Program-made: the position numbers and the translations under genes
Source of the DNA: Bifidobacterium callitrichos DSM 23973
GTDB taxonomy: Bacteria; Actinomycetota; Actinomycetes; Actinomycetales; Bifidobacteriaceae
Assembly: GCF_000741175.1 (NCBI RefSeq)
Contig: NZ_JGYS01000005.1
Span: forward strand, 124,001-188,000
Direction of reading: 5' to 3'
Length of the DNA stretch: 64,000 bases
The notes under the pieces: model-generated
What the model was told of the DNA's origin: nothing
The model's database searches: none
Seen by the model: the letters and a program-made list of their open reading frames with translations, nothing else
Shown here: positions 8,879 through 57,030 of the stretch, piece by piece
Layout of the letters: each line of letters opens with the position of its first letter
Position numbering within the stretch: position 1 is the first letter of the stretch

Positions 8879-9172
8879 CTAGTCATCCGGTTCCTCCACA
8901 GGCACGAGGATACGCTGACCCACCTCAAGCGACGTGCCTTCCAGATGGTTGAGCTCCACCAGCTCCTCCACCGATTGGTTGACGTCACCGCCTTCGGGCG
9001 TAACCATCTGCGCATAGGTCCACAGCGTCTGACCGGGTTGCACGGTATAGCTCTCCACCTCCATGGGCCCCGCCGCCGAATCGGCCATCGACGGACTGAA
9101 CGCACTCAATGCGGCCACTGCCACGAGCACAACCAGCAGCAGCGCCATGATCCTTGACAGGATTCGTTCCAT
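8879..9172 (-). CDS. LysM-domain membrane protein, likely SOS cell-division inhibitor
   Basis: A 97-residue protein with an N-terminal membrane segment (IMALLLVVLVAVAALSAF) and one LysM domain (SYTVQPGQTLWTYAQMV to VGQRILVPVEE). It is divergent from lexA, with LexA boxes between them and nrdR downstream. This is the arrangement of M. tuberculosis Rv2719c and resembles B. subtilis yneA, both SOS-induced proteins that delay division. The ATG at 9172 follows GAGGG; the in-frame upstream extension would cover LexA box 1. Function is inferred from domain and context. Confidence 0.8.
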   Translation of the reverse strand: MERILSRIMALLLVVLVAVAALSAFSPSMADSAAGPMEVESYTVQPGQTLWTYAQMVTPEGGDVNQSVEELVELNHLEGTSLEVGQRILVPVEEPDD

Positions 9173-9187
9173 GGTCACCACACCCTC

Positions 9188-9203
9188 TCGAACACTTGTT
9201 CTA
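9188..9203. promoter_or_regulatory. LexA box 1 (proximal to LysM gene)
   Basis: TCGAACACTTGTTCTA is a near match to the actinobacterial SOS box TCGAAC-N4-GTTCGA, 16 bases upstream of the LysM gene start. Confidence 0.85.
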
Positions 9204-9257
9204 ACGAACGGATGTACTAATTGTGGCATGAATGTTCGAACGGCGCAACCCGCCGTG

Positions 9258-9273: not shown

Positions 9274-9323
9274 TGAAATGAACAATTCACGTTATGCTTA
9301 TCACATATTCGAAAGGAGAGCCC

Positions 9324-10127
9324 ATGAGCACCATCCCGTTCAACCCGGGCATCGCCGACGGCCAGACCGAGACGGCAAAACCGCTTACCGACCGTCAGCG
9401 CCGCATCCTCGAGGCGATCACTACGTACCAGAACGAGTGCGGCTTCGCTCCCTCCTTCAGAGACATCGGAGAGGCCTGCGGCCTCAAGAGCCCCTCCTCG
9501 GTCAAGCACCAGCTGCAGGTGCTGGCGCAGAAGGGCTATATCCGCCTCAATGCGAACAAGGGACGCGCCATCGAGATCCTGCGTACGCCCGACGCCGAGA
9601 CGGCGTCATCCACCGATCAGCATATCCCCATCCAACCGTCCCGTACGGCCGCGGACATCGAGGCCAATGACGGCGGGGAACGACGTTCCAGCGCCATCGT
9701 CTACCGGTTCCCCACCACGCTTGGGCAGGAGACGGACGAGGAGTCGTCGGATTCCCGTGACGTCCCGCTTGTGGGCCGCATCGCCGCGGGCGTGCCAATC
9801 ACCGCCGAACAGCATGTGGAGGATGTGATGCGCCTGCCCGAGCGTCTGACCGGTTCGGGCGGAAGACTGTTCATGCTGGAGGTGCATGGCGATTCGATGA
9901 TCGACGCCGCCATCTGCGACGGCGATTTCGTCGTGGTGCGCGAGCAGAACGACGCCGTCAACGGCGATATCGTCGCCGCCCTGCTGGACGGCGAGGCGAC
10001 GGTGAAGACCTATCGCAAGGAGCATGGCCATCTGTGGCTGATGCCGCACAATCCCGCTTACGCCCCCATCGACGGCACGCAGGCCACGATCATGGGCAGG
10101 GTCGTGACGGTTCTGCGCAAGCTGTGA
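9324..10127 (+). CDS. lexA: SOS response repressor LexA
   Basis: Repressor of DNA-damage genes that cleaves itself when RecA is activated. From the ATG at 9324 (AAAGGAGAG upstream) it has 267 residues: winged-helix domain (about 21-85), linker (about 86-148), cleavage site Ala155-Gly156 in RIAAGVPI, catalytic Ser191 in HGDSM and Lys228 in ATVKTY. The linker is long for the family and rich in Ser, Asp and Glu. The last 46 bases belong to a sequence repeated perfectly about 3.3 kb downstream, so the gene end may have been rebuilt by an insertion event. Confidence 0.95.
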
Positions 10128-10129
10128 TA
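10082..10129 (+). repeat. Direct repeat DR-L: lexA 3' end (upstream copy)
   Basis: 48 bases identical to 13338-13385. It covers the last codons of lexA and its TGA stop plus TA. The sequence after it, including the terminator, is similar but diverged between copies. Confidence 0.95.
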
Positions 10130-10147
10130 TAGCAGACGCCCCGCAGC

Positions 10148-10177
10148 AGAAAACCCCGGCACTGGCCGGGGTTTTCT
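10148..10177 (+). terminator. lexA terminator (upstream copy)
   Basis: Perfect stem AGAAAACCCCGGC with loop ACTG, followed by GTAG. It is flanked by A and T runs, so it can serve lexA and also the convergent histidine kinase gene. Confidence 0.85.
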
Positions 10178-10195
10178 GTAGGGCAGCACGCCAAC

Positions 10196-11395
10196 TTATC
10201 GCTTAATGACAGCTTCCATAGACCAGCGTCCAGCATCCTGTGATACCCGCATTGAACCGCCATACCGATGGAGCCTCTCCCCATATCGCCCCAAACCGGA
10301 ATGCATATGATGCATATCATCACTCATCCGTTTCAACGGGACGTCGGTGACTCTCATGATGTACTGACGTGGCAAGGTCTCGATGCTGAACACATAATCG
10401 AACCTCGGATCTGCGTGACTAGCTATGTTACCCAATGATTCCCGCATGAGACCAGTCAGTAAAGCCACGACCTCCGGCGTATCCTCATGATCACTCGTAT
10501 CGGGAAGCAGTATGCTCCCATTGAAGCCCATCGCCGTCAACCGTTGCCTCTGCCGATCCCCGATTTGCCGCAATCGATCAGGCAACACGGATTGCGGCAA
10601 TCGCTTCTCATCATTCAGATCGAACCCATCCGCAGTCCCCTCATTGAGCTGGTTGATGAGCTGACGAACGCCGATGTTGGCATGCATCATTGATTGCAGC
10701 GCATTGCTGAGTTCAGCATTATCGGAAGGTGATATCTGCATATGATGCCTGAGAATGAGTACTGCATCCGTGATGTCATTGGCGATATGGTCATGCAGCT
10801 TTTCGGTGACAGCATCTCTAGTTCGACATTCTCGCAAACGTTGCCGCATCAACGCCTTGTCCTGTTCCTGCCGCATGACATATCCTACAAGCATGGAAAG
10901 CAGTAAGGCCGATACGGGAAACAACAGATAGAGAAACAACATATTCGGCAGTGTGTGAGACGTGCCGACAACCAGATCCATTTCAAATGTGTTCAACGAT
11001 CCAGATACTACTCGAGTCATGAATGAAATGATTCCTATGACAATGGTTCCAGCTATCCCCTGCTCGATATTACAGTAACCCAACACTGCGACTGCAAACA
11101 TACAGGAGATGAAATAACTGTTTGGTAAAATAATGTCGGCCCCCGGGAATACTCCTATGACCCAGCAAAGCAGAATCATCCAACTACCTACATACGGATA
11201 TATATTGACGATCAACAATGCGGTACACGAAACGATCAATAATGATGATTGCGCAATTGAATAGTTGATTTCCATTAGTGGAAGTGCAATACAACAGAGA
11301 AGAATACAGATCGCGGATGGCATATACGTCCATGGATATCCACGATGATAGCGAGACAACAGATTTGCTACATCATCTTTGATAATGCCAAACAT
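10196..11395 (-). CDS. NarL-type sensor histidine kinase (island copy)
   Basis: A 399-residue membrane sensor: about six membrane segments (residues 25-175), then a dimerisation helix with the likely phospho-acceptor His201 in EKLHDHIANDITD, then an ATPase-like domain. The N-box region is ESLGNIASHADP and a GLGRYGERL motif is present, but the DxGxG ATP-binding motif is not: VTDVPLKRM stands in its place. It may be a weak or atypical kinase. It lies 12 bases after its response regulator and both read away from the exported-protein gene. The ligand is unknown; a peptide signal would fit the membrane topology. Confidence 0.8.
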   Translation of the reverse strand: MFGIIKDDVANLLSRYHRGYPWTYMPSAICILLCCIALPLMEINYSIAQSSLLIVSCTALLIVNIYPYVGSWMILLCWVIGVFPGADIILPNSYFISCMFAVAVLGYCNIEQGIAGTIVIGIISFMTRVVSGSLNTFEMDLVVGTSHTLPNMLFLYLLFPVSALLLSMLVGYVMRQEQDKALMRQRLRECRTRDAVTEKLHDHIANDITDAVLILRHHMQISPSDNAELSNALQSMMHANIGVRQLINQLNEGTADGFDLNDEKRLPQSVLPDRLRQIGDRQRQRLTAMGFNGSILLPDTSDHEDTPEVVALLTGLMRESLGNIASHADPRFDYVFSIETLPRQYIMRVTDVPLKRMSDDMHHMHSGLGRYGERLHRYGGSMRVSQDAGRWSMEAVIKR

Positions 11396-11407
11396 GGAAC
11401 CGCCATT

Positions 11408-12109
11408 TCAGATAAGGTGCTGTTGTTGGCAGATACGTATCGCTTCGAAACGTTGCCGAACGCCGAGCTTGCGTGCTGCATGACTTGTATGCGACTGCAC
11501 TGTTCCAACGGAGATATGCAGAGACTTTGCTATCTCCTTCGTGGTCATACCGCGGGCGTACATCGACAATATACCGATCTCGCGTTGTGAAATGCCCCGG
11601 ACATCTACTTCGCCGCGCACATGCTCGTACGCATCACGAGGCGTCATGAACTCCTGACTTCCATCCTGAACAATGTCCGCAACCTCATCTCGAAAGCCAT
11701 GTTGATTCGATCCACGCAATACATCAACGAACATGGCCGAGCCAACGGAGTCCTTACTTACCAGAGCCTGCGCACCCGCATCAACAAGGCGCGCACGATA
11801 CTGTTCGAGTGGATAGGCGGTGACGCCGATGAGGCGAATGGTCGACGATCGTCTGCGTAGCTCTCTACATACGTCCACACCGGATATGCCGTTAAGCACA
11901 AGATCGAGTATCACCACGTCGGGCTGCAGAGCATCATATGTGATGTGTTCCATAAGCCGCTGAGGCTTGGTCTCCTTCCAGATCACCTCCATATCCGGCT
12001 TACGATGCCGGATGAGCATATCTATCATCATTAATGCGCAGACATCATTGTCCAATATGCCGATACGCAATCGCCGCGATCCCCGGTCTTCCGCCATAGC
12101 TACTTTCAT
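11408..12109 (-). CDS. LuxR/NarL-family response regulator (island copy)
   Basis: A 233-residue regulator. The receiver domain has acidic residues ILDND and phospho-acceptor Asp69 in VVILDLVLNG, Thr in VTAYP and Lys in LVSKDS. The C-terminal LuxR helix-turn-helix is ISQREIGILSMYARGMTTKEIAKSL. It pairs with the kinase downstream. Two palindromes in the divergent promoter region are candidate binding sites. The start is uncertain: ATG at 12109 has no clear ribosome site, ATG at 12097 follows GAAAG. Confidence 0.88.
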   Translation of the reverse strand: MKVAMAEDRGSRRLRIGILDNDVCALMMIDMLIRHRKPDMEVIWKETKPQRLMEHITYDALQPDVVILDLVLNGISGVDVCRELRRRSSTIRLIGVTAYPLEQYRARLVDAGAQALVSKDSVGSAMFVDVLRGSNQHGFRDEVADIVQDGSQEFMTPRDAYEHVRGEVDVRGISQREIGILSMYARGMTTKEIAKSLHISVGTVQSHTSHAARKLGVRQRFEAIRICQQQHLI

Positions 12110-12191
12110 AATACTATATTACACCTAAAACTGACAACATCACGTTCGTTCCAGTTTTTCTTGAATCCTAGTTGCATCGGCATACATACCA

Positions 12192-12237
12192 TGACATAAT
12201 GTCAATTATTCGCATAGATGCGAATACATCTTATAAT
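12192..12237 (+). promoter_or_regulatory. Promoter and two palindromic operators for the exported-protein gene
   Basis: A -10 TATAAT lies at 12232-12237, with TTCGCA 17 bases upstream at 12209-12214 as the -35 region. That -35 lies in a perfect palindrome ATTCGCATAGATGCGAAT (12208-12225), and a second palindrome TGACATAATGTCA is at 12192-12204. The spacing suggests control by the adjacent response regulator. Operator identity is inference. Confidence 0.6.
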
Positions 12238-12257
12238 TCTTAAGAAAAGAGTACATT

Positions 12258-12875
12258 ATGAATATCAAGCGATGGAATATTATGTGCATAGTATTTACTA
12301 GTATATCCACTCTGCTTTTGCCTATTTCTGTATTGCAACAATCGCATGCAAATGAATCAAATTCATCTGAGCAGATTCCGAAAGAAATGTACGGACTCGA
12401 TTATTACATTTCTATTTCCAATAACAAGCTGTGCTTTGATTCCAACTCTGCTCTCTCGAACGGTTATTCCAATTCTGCTGTAGAGTTTGTTTCAAACCAA
12501 ATTAATTACATGAATACCGCAATCAAAACAGGATCAATACTAAATACTTATGATTATTCAGTAACTTCAACTTCGCTGACTACTTATGTTCTCTCGAAAG
12601 CAAAATGGATTAATAAGGAAGTACACCATTGGTACGGATTACATGAATTCTGGATGGATAGCGAGAAAACAAAGCAGTATATCTCAGGACTAGAGAAAGG
12701 AAATGTTGGGAATTATATACCAGGTTGGCTTGGCACCGTTGCTAAACTGTATAGCTCAGCCACAATAGCCGACGCCAAAATGGCAGCTCGTCCTGGACGC
12801 GGAATCATTATGCACAGCCAGTTCAGTGGCACGGGTATTACTTCTGTAGCCAGTATATGGCATCATTCACAGTGA
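12258..12875 (+). CDS. AT-rich exported protein of unknown function
   Basis: 205 residues. The N-terminus is a signal peptide (KRW, hydrophobic stretch to about residue 26, probable cleavage after SHA near residue 31). The mature part is rich in Ser, Asn, Tyr and Thr, has one Cys, and ends in a Gly/Ser/His-rich tail (GRGIIMHSQFSGTGITSV, then ASIWHHSQ). I do not recognise the family. The gene is much more AT-rich than the chromosome. It is the first gene of a unit facing a two-component system and is followed by a small membrane protein. That layout is typical of secreted effectors or bacteriocins with an immunity partner, which is only a hypothesis. Ribosome site AAAAGAG. Confidence 0.75.
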   Translation: MNIKRWNIMCIVFTSISTLLLPISVLQQSHANESNSSEQIPKEMYGLDYYISISNNKLCFDSNSALSNGYSNSAVEFVSNQINYMNTAIKTGSILNTYDYSVTSTSLTTYVLSKAKWINKEVHHWYGLHEFWMDSEKTKQYISGLEKGNVGNYIPGWLGTVAKLYSSATIADAKMAARPGRGIIMHSQFSGTGITSVASIWHHSQ

Positions 12876-12901
12876 CAAGACGATAGTTGGAGATGATGGA
12901 T

Positions 12902-13291
12902 ATGATCCGTTGGTTATTTGTTTGGGTTGGTTATATCGCCTATGTCGTCGTACTGAATCTTGGTGTGCACACAACCGGGCAAATGAGCATCGCGGATCAA
13001 ATGGCATTACCATTGGGAACGCATACCTGGTTTGCGCTGTGGTGCACGCTCGGGCTTGCCATTCCAGCATTCATCCGACTGTCACATGGGTACCCGAAAT
13101 CATTCGTCGCACTTACCACTGCGATCTGCACACTCGCATGGCTGTCCATGGGCATGCGGTATGCCCCCATCATTCAGATCGGCCCTCTCAATGAAACAAT
13201 CATCGATTGGATCAGCGATGGATTGAACCTTGCTTCAATAGTGGCATTAGGTATGGCGGCATGGCGGAGCTCCGGCGACGATTCCCGTTAA
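12902..13291 (+). CDS. Small four-helix membrane protein
   Basis: 129 residues from the ATG at 12902, which is nine bases after GGAG; in-frame TTG/ATG codons at 12887-12896 overlap that site. Four predicted membrane segments (near residues 3-20, 44-60, 70-86 and 105-122). It begins 26 bases after the exported-protein gene and is probably co-transcribed. No family recognised. A role in immunity to, or export of, its neighbour is possible but untested. Confidence 0.65.
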   Translation: MIRWLFVWVGYIAYVVVLNLGVHTTGQMSIADQMALPLGTHTWFALWCTLGLAIPAFIRLSHGYPKSFVALTTAICTLAWLSMGMRYAPIIQIGPLNETIIDWISDGLNLASIVALGMAAWRSSGDDSR

Positions 13292-13337
13292 CGGACATCG
13301 TCAGTCACAGAACCTGTCTTCACCTTTAGCCGATCCC

Positions 13338-13385
13338 GGCCACGATCATGGGCAGGGTCGTGACGGTTCTGCGCAAGCTGTGATA
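13338..13385 (+). repeat. Direct repeat DR-R: lexA 3' end (downstream copy)
   Basis: Identical to 10082-10129 over 48 bases, including the former lexA stop. No lexA reading frame precedes it, so it is a gene-end fragment left beyond the island. Confidence 0.95.
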
Positions 13386-13404
13386 CACTGAACGCCCAGC
13401 AACA

Positions 13405-13432
13405 GGAGACCCCGGCAACAGCCGGGGTTTCC
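13405..13432 (+). terminator. Terminator hairpin (downstream copy of the lexA terminator)
   Basis: Stem GGAGACCCCGGC, loop AACA. It matches the layout of the hairpin at 10148-10177 with several substitutions, and now terminates the exported-protein unit. Confidence 0.75.
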
Positions 13433-13521
13433 GCGTTTCTCAAGCAAAACGGGAATGGTATTGAGAAGCGGTCTCATTCCGCGAATACCGAGAAGGCACG
13501 AAGGAAACGAGGATTACGACC

Positions 13522-14472
13522 ATGGCACATACGCACGCACCGCTCGCGGAGAGGGGATCGAACGGATCCAAGGAGCATCAGCATCGGCTGACGGCGACGC
13601 TGGCCGTCACCGCCTCGGTGTTCGTCATCGAAGTGGTCAGCTCACTGCTGACCGGATCGCTGGCGCTGCTGGTGGACGCCGGTCACATGCTCACCGACAT
13701 GTCGGTGCTCATCGCCTCTACGGTGACGGCAATTCTGATGCGCCGCAAGCCCAACAATCACCGTACGTGGGGCTGGGCGCGCCTCGAGGTGCTGACGGCC
13801 GCAGCCGGTGCGATCGTACTGTTGATCGTTGGCATCTACGCTCTCGTGGAAGCGGGCATGCGCCTGTTCGGCGGCTCCGAGGCCGGCATCGAGGACATCG
13901 ATCTGCTGCTGTTCGTCGGCATCCTCGGTCTGGCGGCGAACGTGGCGTCGATCTTCATCCTCGCCTCGCAGCGCGGCGACAACATGAACATGCGTGCCGC
14001 GTTTCTGGAGGTGATGAACGACGCCCTCGGCTCGGTGGCGGTGGTGTTGTCCGCATTGGTGATGATGTCGACGGGCTGGGATGGGTTCGACGCGGTGGCA
14101 GGCGGCGTGATCGCCCTGATGATGATCCCGCGCGCGATCGCGCTGCTGCGCAATGCGGTGCGCGTGCTGCTCGAGGAGACCCCGGAGGGATTGGATCTGG
14201 ACGCAGTGCGCGAGCATCTGGAGCATGTGCCCCATGTAGTGGCCGTGCATGATCTGCATGCGAGCACGGTTTCGACCGGCATGCCGATCCTCATGGCGCA
14301 TATCGTCGTCGAGAAGGGCCTGACGATGGAGCAGGCCGCGGATATCCTCGAGCAGTTGCAGGACTGCCTGCGCGAGCACTTCCCCGTATCGGTGCCCCAT
14401 ACCACGTTCCAGTTGGAGCCGGAGGGCTACCGCTCCCCCTCCGACGATCAGATGCACCCATCGGAGAAGTGA
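13522..14472 (+). CDS. Cation diffusion facilitator (Zn2+/Co2+/Cd2+ exporter, CzcD-like)
   Basis: 316 residues: His-containing N-terminus, six membrane segments (about 25-205), then a cytoplasmic metal-binding domain. The transport site is DAGHMLTD in helix 2 and EVMNDALGS in helix 5. The usual HxxxD of helix 5 is ExxxD here, so metal preference may differ from classical CzcD. It likely exports zinc or a related divalent ion by proton antiport. The start ATG has a weak GAGG-like site upstream. No metal regulator is adjacent. Confidence 0.88.
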   Translation: MAHTHAPLAERGSNGSKEHQHRLTATLAVTASVFVIEVVSSLLTGSLALLVDAGHMLTDMSVLIASTVTAILMRRKPNNHRTWGWARLEVLTAAAGAIVLLIVGIYALVEAGMRLFGGSEAGIEDIDLLLFVGILGLAANVASIFILASQRGDNMNMRAAFLEVMNDALGSVAVVLSALVMMSTGWDGFDAVAGGVIALMMIPRAIALLRNAVRVLLEETPEGLDLDAVREHLEHVPHVVAVHDLHASTVSTGMPILMAHIVVEKGLTMEQAADILEQLQDCLREHFPVSVPHTTFQLEPEGYRSPSDDQMHPSEK

Positions 14473-14570
14473 CAGACACGCAAGCAAGAGTACATGCGAA
14501 AGATCGAGGGAGGGTACAGATAAAAATCAGGCCACTTCAGCCCGATGCCTAGGTGTCTGTCTGGTCGATG

Positions 14571-14950
14571 CCGTGGTGTTTCTGCCACGATTCGCATGAC
14601 GAGCCGATTCCACGCTGTTGTGCCCCTCTGCTCTTCCACAACACAACCGGAACCGCACTTTCGCGATCCTGTGGCAGCGATTCCTGTCACATCACAGGCG
14701 ATTTTGTTCTTTCGAACACTTGTGGCAACGGGCACTGCCACAACACGGCAAAATCCACGCAATACAGACGTTGTGACGAGCCTCTTAATTGCAGAATCCT
14801 TGAAATTCCGCCATTCCTTGCAAATCGCATCACAGACACCTCGAACGCGCATTGCCACAACGTGCCCGGAATTCCGTTTTCAAACACTTGTGACAGCGGA
14901 TTCCGCCATATCGCGCCGATTCGGTCGAAATGATCGCGTTGTGACAACAG
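14571..14950. repeat. Intergenic cluster A: inverted repeats of the word TTGTGGCA
   Basis: TTGTG(G/A)CA and its complement recur at least eight times in the gap between the CDF gene and ldh. Clearest hairpin: TTGTGGCA, eight-base loop, TGCCACAA at 14720-14743. Another is CGTGG-8-CCACG at 14572-14589. Reading frames across it look like chance products of the repeats. No protein or known RNA recognised. Confidence 0.6.
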
Positions 14951-15085
14951 GTACGAGACGCAGGCGCCGATCGATACGCCAATCAAGCTTTCTAGTCCGA
15001 GCGTCCAGCTCCAAGCCGTCCGGCTGGGATGATTATCCCGGTCGGCAAGTTCATCGCAAAGCCCCTTCCCGCCTATTCACGGCTA

Positions 15086-15125
15086 GGCGACCAAGACCAG
15101 CTACGCACTACCGACACAGACCCCC
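15086..15125 (+). repeat. Dispersed motif M, copy 1
   Basis: About 40 bases beginning GGCGACCAAGACCAG and ending in CCCCC, closely similar to 56474-56512. Both copies lie in the gap downstream of a minus-strand gene (ldh here, aspS there) and before a purine-rich tract. Confidence 0.7.
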
Positions 15126-15148
15126 ACACCGACATCCGATTATAAGGA

Positions 15149-15343
15149 AGATGAAGAGGAAAAGGGAGAAAGGAACAGACCAAGAAGCAAAGAAAAGGAA
15201 GAGGAAGAGCAAAAGGAAAGAAGAAGGGAAAGGGGAAGAAGAGAAGAGAGAAGAGAAGAGGAGGAAGGAAGTAAGGAAGGAAAGGAAGGGAAGGAAGAAG
15301 GGGGAAAGGAAGAGGGGAAAGAAGAAAAAAGCGGTGGCCTCCA
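15149..15343 (+). other. Long polypurine tract
   Basis: About 195 bases of almost pure A/G on the plus strand (only about eight pyrimidines), made of irregular GAAGAGG, GGAAAG and similar words. Open frames across it encode only Lys/Arg/Glu or Phe/Leu/Pro/Ser strings and are rejected as genes. It could form triplex or slipped structures. It lies just beyond the ldh terminator. Confidence 0.8.
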
Positions 15344-15371
15344 ACCAAGCAGGGCAAGGTTGGAGGCCACC
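15321..15371 (-). terminator. ldh terminator
   Basis: 14-bp perfect stem GGTGGCCTCCAACC (15333-15371) with an 11-base loop. On the minus strand it is followed by GCTTTTTTCTTC, a good intrinsic terminator for ldh. Confidence 0.88.
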
Positions 15372-15386
15372 GTAATCACAGCCCAT

Positions 15387-15422
15387 CACCGGCGCACGTG
15401 TGAATAACCACGCGCGCCGGTG
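15387..15422 (-). terminator. Second hairpin just after ldh
   Basis: Stem CACCGGCGCACGTG with one mismatch and an eight-base loop, ending 24 bases past the ldh stop. It lacks a T run, so it may act as a 3' stabilising hairpin ahead of the terminator. Confidence 0.55.
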
Positions 15423-15445
15423 ATGCCGGTTCAGTCAGAAGCCGA

Positions 15446-56684: not shown

Positions 56685-57030
56685 AAAGGGTTTAGGGATG
56701 GGGGGTGACAGTGTGACAGGAGGTAATGGAAAGTAACGGGAGATGAAGGGAGATAACAGGAGTAACGAAGTAACGAAGTACGGGAGGAGATGGTAACTGT
56801 GCAGGGTAACGGGGTAACGAGGTAACAGGAGGAGATGGTGACTGTGCAAAGTGACGGGAAGTAGCAGGAGGTAACGAAGGCAACGAAAGCAACAGAAGGT
56901 AACGAGGGTAACAGGAGGTGCGAAGGAGGCATACGAGGAGGCATACGAGGAGGCATACGAGGAGGCATACGAGGAGGCATACGAGGAGGCATACGAGGAG
57001 GCATACGAGGAGGCATACGAGGAGGCATAC
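56685..57030 (+). repeat. Purine-rich tract with nine 12-bp tandem repeats
   Basis: A G/A-rich strand with degenerate GGTAACGAGGTAACAGGAGG words, ending in nine copies of the 12-mer GAGGAGGCATAC (GCATAC at 56929 and every 12 bases to 57025). Frames in it encode only repetitive peptides and are rejected. Confidence 0.85.

Follow-up and report, generated by a model that had tools for sequence, protein, structure and literature searches.

How did four genes of foreign composition come to lie between lexA, encoding the SOS repressor, and a gene for a CDF-family cation efflux protein in Bifidobacterium callitrichos DSM 23973, bracketed by two identical copies of the lexA 3' end? The stretch of DNA analysed here, referred to as the window, comprises 64,000 nucleotides (RefSeq assembly GCF_000741175.1, contig NZ_JGYS01000005.1, positions 124,001 to 188,000 of the forward strand), and we call the region between the two copies the islet and its four genes the cassette. 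A preliminary description had reported a perfect 48-bp duplicate of the lexA end 3256 bases downstream, a related but diverged terminator after each copy, genes of lower guanine-plus-cytosine (GC) content in between and the lack of an integrase, and had seen in this the mark of site-specific integration, with recent exchange or functional constraint keeping the repeat perfect. The observation itself is confirmed in all these points. Its interpretation is partly supported, the site-specific reading being the part that finds no support. The explanation that we favour, and to which we give roughly an even chance, is that a recent insertion-duplication between lexA and CDF, with DNA coming from a sister lineage, left the islet as its scar.

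The repeat is exact at 48 of 48 positions, its two copies starting 3256 bases apart (Table 1), and copy 1 consists of the final 46 bases of lexA, whose stop codon occupies positions 10125-10127, followed by TA. Similarity extends beyond this core to 93 nt at 87% identity, through a GC hairpin that follows each copy (called a terminator by eye), with 33 of the 45 bases after the two cores being identical. Longer exact direct repeats occur in the window solely as registers of a single 12-nt tandem array at position 56924, and a search of the own genome with a 101-base query including the lexA end returned three matches, i.e. copy 1, copy 2 and the hairpin alone on the opposite strand. An assembly error is an unlikely cause, ordinary reads being much longer than the repeat and copy 1 being located 134 kb inside its contig (C5:134082). 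The erroneous joining of two loci at the 48-bp repeat might be imagined in a draft genome of 33 contigs, but we regard it as exceedingly improbable: the contig end is far away, the bases preceding copy 2 are unique in the genome, and the cargo is real, as a homologue of the secreted-looking protein encoded in the islet, 97% identical and coming from another source, is known within a cluster of 17 sequences.

Which of the two copies is the resident one? Copy 2 continues into TACACTG, the hairpin, CGCGTTTC and AATGGTATTGAGAAGCGGTCTCA, and close versions of these elements are found between lexA and the CDF gene in two related genomes, G072 and G068. In a tree of LexA and CDF sequences (37 in total: 36 of the 38 loci tried, and the window), G072 is the sister of the window with a support of 0.57, and the clade that these two form with G068 has a support of 0.968. 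Because copy 2 is joined to spacer elements present also in these relatives, it is, judged from the sequence, the old chromosomal lexA end. The spacer of copy 1, by the same kind of evidence, derives from a lexA locus as well. Ahead of the hairpin the two copies agree at 16 of 25 positions, a value reached by 36 of 100,000 shuffles, and in the hairpin-anchored 40 bases they agree at 32, with the best of 22 relatives reaching 25 against copy 1 and 26 against copy 2. At the gene end, where the copies match each other at 48/48, G072 is the best of the 8 relatives computed, with 44/48. The arm of an attachment site carried by an element (attP) would not be expected to share the spacer and the hairpin of lexA.

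A perfect core with a diverged flank is also what functional lexA genes may produce by themselves. We compared all pairs among 111 other genomes of the genus, and in the six pairs whose spacers match at 30-38 of 45 bases, the lexA ends agree at 45, 46 and, in four pairs, 47 of 48 positions; the copies in the window (33/45 and 48/48) are one base better than the best of these six. The ends of functional lexA genes from two sister lineages would therefore look almost like the two copies in the window, and within the limits of this calibration both copies have the appearance expected if each came from a functional lexA locus. More generally, lexA ends of sister species are near identical while the next 45 bases diverge, and a short repeat without mismatches at the end of a gene can pass for an attachment site; as such ends are naturally alike, a perfect repeat with a diverged flank is alone no proof of the action of an integrase. 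With non-coding drift at half of the spacer divergence of 0.27, the probability of no change in 48 bases is about 0.001, or 0.04 if 22 of the bases are free, and at a spacer divergence of 0.20 these values become 0.006 and 0.10, respectively. Recent exchange is accordingly to be favoured over an old duplication, as far as the sequences tell and unless gene conversion has acted, since a copy that had long been non-coding would be expected to have changed. Of the two causes of identity offered by the preliminary description, exchange is thus borne out by the spacer comparisons and the six-pair calibration, and constraint may add a little, by way of a promoter-like motif over the old stop codon described below.

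The course of events that we propose would begin with a sister lineage that carried the cassette directly behind lexA. A donor segment from it would have held a lexA end, the donor's own lexA spacer with its hairpin, and the cassette with genes for a kinase, a response regulator, a secreted protein and a membrane protein. This segment would have recombined with the resident lexA, which was kept whole through copy 1, and the resident end of lexA, with its spacer and the CDF gene, would have come to lie behind the cassette as copy 2. The joining may have been a single crossover (Campbell-type) or homology-assisted. The duplicated part of lexA would later have been trimmed to 48 bp, which may have been retained as the upstream part of a promoter for the leader of the CDF gene. 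A number of observations weigh against this explanation. No donor genome with the cassette directly behind lexA was found among the 111. A tract of 48 bp is short for RecA-type recombination, and for that reason the later trimming must be assumed. For the junction at 13292-13337 no source was detected. The calibration is narrow, four of its six pairs coming from one group of four genomes and none reaching 48/48; it is ungapped, so that pairs with indels in the spacer drop out, and there exist pairs that match at 47/48 in the gene end and only 14-16/45 in the spacer, while the next pairs (28/45) have 46/48 and 39/48 in the lexA end. Finally, G072, the nearest relative with a related cassette, carries it behind the CDF gene, an order that a local rearrangement would explain no less well.

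To place the islet in the genus, the lexA region was compared in the 111 genomes and in 80 named lexA loci, of which 22 (L004-L025) belong to Bifidobacteriaceae and are partly from the same genomes, some of the named loci having little downstream DNA. Exact words from about the last 63 bases of lexA were sought downstream, at least 8 kb being available in 108 of the 111 genomes. A duplicated lexA end was found in none of the 111 genomes (the longest exact word was 14 nt) and in none of the 80 loci (13 nt), contrary to what would be seen if the relatives all shared both copies, and a use of the same target elsewhere, which the preliminary description had suggested looking for, did not emerge. 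The empty site anticipated by the same description did: 94 of the 111 genomes have a CDF match downstream of lexA (E <= 1e-5), and in 91 of these at most 600 bases separate its nearest end from lexA; the CDF gene is on the strand of lexA, as in the window, in 23 of the 94 and on the opposite strand in 71. In the remaining 17 genomes the stretch compared yielded no CDF match; in the case of L109, it extends for only some 800 bases past lexA. Genes of the cassette occur in the lexA stretch of only one of the 111 genomes, G072, behind CDF. For a second lexA end elsewhere in the other genomes, the strongest extra match among those listed was in G056 (E 3e-4), and it falls inside an open reading frame (ORF) taken by eye for a transporter, so that we rejected it. 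Two loci, L122 (G009) and L123 (G012), have other ORFs in a lexA-CDF gap of 4-6 kb, a third, L157 (G074), has a gap of about 1.1 kb, and L086 (G071) has no CDF match near lexA; none of these four has a repeated lexA end.

Could the islet nonetheless be a decayed or cis-mobilizable integrative element (CIME), with the 48 bp as the core of attL and attR at the lexA 3' end? A tyrosine recombinase would then have integrated it, its integrase and transfer genes having been lost or acting in trans. Integrative and mobilizable elements (IMEs) with tyrosine integrases are described in PMC5704250 as flanked by direct repeats of 8-60 bp and as targeting the 3' ends of housekeeping genes, and CIMEs as elements without integration and transfer genes but with attL and attR. 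By that description, a 48/48 repeat at a gene end that leaves lexA whole fits in both length and type of target. The islet has the two repeats, as putative attachment sites, and lacks integration and transfer genes, and its ends share the lexA spacer. In favour of such an origin, the genome has 14 matches to PF00589; none of them is in the islet, and the single match that shares its contig is at a distance of about 106 kb. This genome-wide search covered the tyrosine family of recombinases, while the four islet proteins were searched against Pfam and NCBIfam, with no integrase or other recombinase, nor any other mobility gene, being found among them. Eight lexA loci of unusual spacing or lacking a CDF gene (four of the 17 without it among them) were inspected by eye, and no integrase was seen in the first 130 residues of their ORFs. 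The lexA-end pattern had no match in viral contigs, in a scan run with no positive control; a scan that reaches close relatives only gave no viral match for the secreted protein, and for the response regulator eight pattern matches, none of them a relative. Among phages, a 99-base query matched 11 records over at most 49 bases of the hairpin part and none in the 48 bp, and the whole islet had no match in plasmids. No title on lexA as an integration site in Bifidobacterium appeared among the literature matches listed. The lack of mobility genes and of matches in viral contigs and plasmids, together with homology between the ends that runs 45 bases past the core into spacer and hairpin, which is unexpected for an attP arm borne by an element, and with the lexA end being unrepeated in all other loci sampled, makes a CIME-like origin unlikely in our view. 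Should the islet turn out to be mobile, lexA would have to be counted as an integration target without a parallel in the loci sampled. A broader proposition, which we regard as decidedly improbable, sees in the lexA 3' end a true and hitherto unseen attachment site, used by small elements that have no integrase and are moved in trans; if it were true, cargo would be placed behind the SOS repressor and at the promoter of a CDF metal-efflux gene, and its capture and expression would be tied to DNA damage.

The closest parallel to the cassette is found in G072, in which lexA and CDF are followed by a kinase remnant (-), a response regulator (-), a membrane gene (+) and, as read by eye, LDH; this related unit has the same neighbourhood and orientation as the cassette in the window and occupies the other side of CDF. 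The remnant matches only residues 18-131 and 359-399 of the kinase. In G068 the order is lexA, CDF, LDH, and the cassette is absent. The response regulators of the window and G072 are 63% identical, the next full-length match being at 47% in G056 (E <= 1e-40), while the regulator of G045 matches in three pieces at 36-65% identity and stands outside this full-length ranking. The membrane gene of the window also has its closest relative in G072 (59%, next 43%). The kinase, regulator and membrane genes are clustered in five genomes including the own one (the window, G072, G045, G030 and G056); in the last three the unit is located away from lexA, and in G056 the kinase is on the opposite side of the membrane gene. 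The window and G072 share TTTTTCTTGAATCCTRRTTGCAT, a 23-nt element located where the divergent promoters would be, and at 11-14/23 it is not conserved in the other three, shuffles of the region reaching at most 15. When direct repeats of at least 24 nt were sought near these other cassettes, G072 gave a single weak 27-nt pair whose members do not enclose the cassette, G056 gave short tandem repeats, and G030 gave none. In G045, away from lexA, a 57-nt direct repeat at 84% (L205:8154-8210 and 9156-9212) brackets the related membrane gene.

These similarities would be accommodated by a local tandem duplication with reciprocal loss. From an ancestor with the order lexA, CDF, cassette, LDH, the unit from the lexA end to the cassette would have been doubled, and loss of the first CDF and the second cassette would have made the cassette switch sides of CDF and left a lexA end ahead of CDF, the 48 bp being kept identical by gene conversion or by constraint on a promoter. 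The scheme has no need of a mobility gene, and it draws strength from the presence in the sister genome of a related unit, likewise oriented, between CDF and LDH, from the closest membrane gene and the closest full-length regulator both being there, and from the shared promoter element. It also leaves much to be explained: the 973-bp gap between CDF and LDH in the window contains no traces of a second cassette or CDF (best tblastn E 0.18), a GC content at third codon positions (GC3) of 0.37-0.58 in the cassette of the window against 0.853 and 0.857 in the membrane and regulator genes of G072 is odd for vertical descent, and a perfect 48 bp beside a spacer diverged by 27% demands gene conversion or constraint. 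We consider this origin rather unlikely, and continue to prefer insertion-duplication from a sister lineage.

The composition of the islet is foreign. GC content is 0.474 in the kinase gene, 0.528 in the regulator, 0.389 in the secreted and 0.517 in the membrane gene, as compared with 0.648 in lexA and 0.645 in CDF, and GC3 in the cassette stands against 0.84-0.93 in lexA, CDF and LDH. The kinase-like protein has no match in Pfam or NCBIfam, and its putative role is suggested by its position next to the response regulator and by a kinase-like motif recognized by eye. A search of about 5.8 billion proteins gave just two homologues of the secreted-looking protein at E <= 0.001. Within the genus it is found in 3 of 112 genomes including the own one, the other two carrying distant relatives, and its gene is located between the regulator and the membrane gene in the window only. 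The predicted fold is of low confidence (mean pLDDT 67) and had no match in the PDB at E <= 0.001, the best being at E 1.0.

Table 1. Features of the lexA-CDF region (positions in the window)
Feature	Positions	Strand	Remarks
lexA, SOS repressor gene	9294..10127	+	longest ORF, start may be 9324; TIGR00498 E 6.5e-66, Peptidase_S24, LexA_DNA_bind
Copy 1 of the 48-bp repeat	10082..10129	+	exact match to copy 2
Copy 1 spacer and GC hairpin	10130..10180	+	related to copy 2 counterpart, diverged (33/45; hairpin-anchored 32/40)
Sensor histidine kinase-like membrane protein, 399 aa	10196..11395	-	in 73/112 genus genomes including own (E <= 0.001)
NarL/LuxR-type response regulator, 233 aa	11408..12109	-	GerE 2.4e-16, Response_reg 4.7e-13
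TTTTTCTTGAATCCTRRTTGCAT element, divergent promoter region	12155..12177	+	21/23 in G072
205-aa protein of unknown family, looks secreted by its N-terminus	12258..12875	+	GC3 0.37
Small membrane protein (by eye), 134 aa	12887..13291	+	in 7/112 genus genomes including own
Junction of membrane gene and copy 2, 46 bp	13292..13337	.	single occurrence in genome
Copy 2 of the 48-bp repeat	13338..13385	+	non-coding lexA-end remnant; exact match to copy 1
Extended -10-like motif TGATACACT	13381..13389	+	starts within the former stop codon of lexA; candidate promoter of the CDF leader
Ancestral lexA-CDF spacer	13386..13521	+	hairpin, then operator-like AATGGTATTGAGAAGCGGTCTCA; common to G072 and G068
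CDF-family cation efflux gene	13522..14472	+	TIGR01297 E 8.5e-65; ancestral neighbour downstream of lexA

The question that remains is what could have kept a lexA end in front of CDF, and an answer may be sought in the extended -10-like motif TGATACACT, which begins in the lexA stop codon both in copy 2 and in G072. In copy 1 its counterpart reads TGATATAGC, the final base of the motif being missing. Of 22 same-strand relatives, 17 show the form TGNTANNNT after the lexA gene, its distance to the hairpin being mostly 24-33 nt (G039, the 23rd such relative, was left out of the count, and the hairpin position in L091 was a false earlier match). Within the 48 bp, 18 nt upstream of the motif, a -35-like GTGACG can be read by eye. 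Constraint on such a promoter could explain the retention of the lexA end ahead of CDF; the labels of promoter and terminator come from conservation and from reading by eye, and a simple consensus scan for promoters and terminators did not list the extended -10 motif or either of the hairpins. The conserved motif followed by the GC hairpin (13381-13430) may represent a leader or a tiny RNA with attenuation ahead of CDF, and further on, at 13454-13476, AATGGTATTGAGAAGCGGTCTCA with the palindrome TGAGANNNNNTCTCA, of which close versions exist in relatives, is perhaps the operator of a metal regulator. On the other side of CDF, the gap before LDH (14473-15445) is about 220 bp long in G068, and in the window it contains imperfect repeats of TTGTGGCA/TGCCACAA (14608-14915) as well as a tract rich in purines (15184-15326). 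The array at 56924 spans about 109 bases and is made of about nine perfect copies of the 12-nt unit AGGAGGCATACG.

Compared with known systems, the event is of an ordinary kind, in which an islet at the boundary of a gene was acquired horizontally or rearranged, and it has left an unusually clean scar. The cargo resembles the NarL-type two-component systems of Bifidobacterium in pairing a kinase with a GerE-type response regulator, and differs from them in that the pair is grouped with a small membrane gene in five genomes, the secreted gene being seen between regulator and membrane gene in the window only. CIMEs and IMEs at the 3' ends of housekeeping genes, as described in PMC5704250, are similar in leaving the gene whole and, in the case of CIMEs, in lacking an integrase. 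They are unlike the islet in that its ends share a diverged lexA spacer and hairpin, it has no genes of an element, the lexA end is unrepeated in the other sampled loci and the cargo is a two-component unit of chromosomal type. A tandem duplication with random loss would account for the cassette of the sister genome standing on the other side of CDF in the same orientation, yet no second cassette or CDF is left over and the compositions of the two cassettes differ strongly. The scar of a Campbell-type insertion-duplication differs from the islet in that the duplicate here is just 48 bp long, so that trimming is assumed, and no donor was found among the 111 genomes; it agrees with the islet in that a partial duplicate of the recombined gene flanks the newcomer, and no recombinase is involved.

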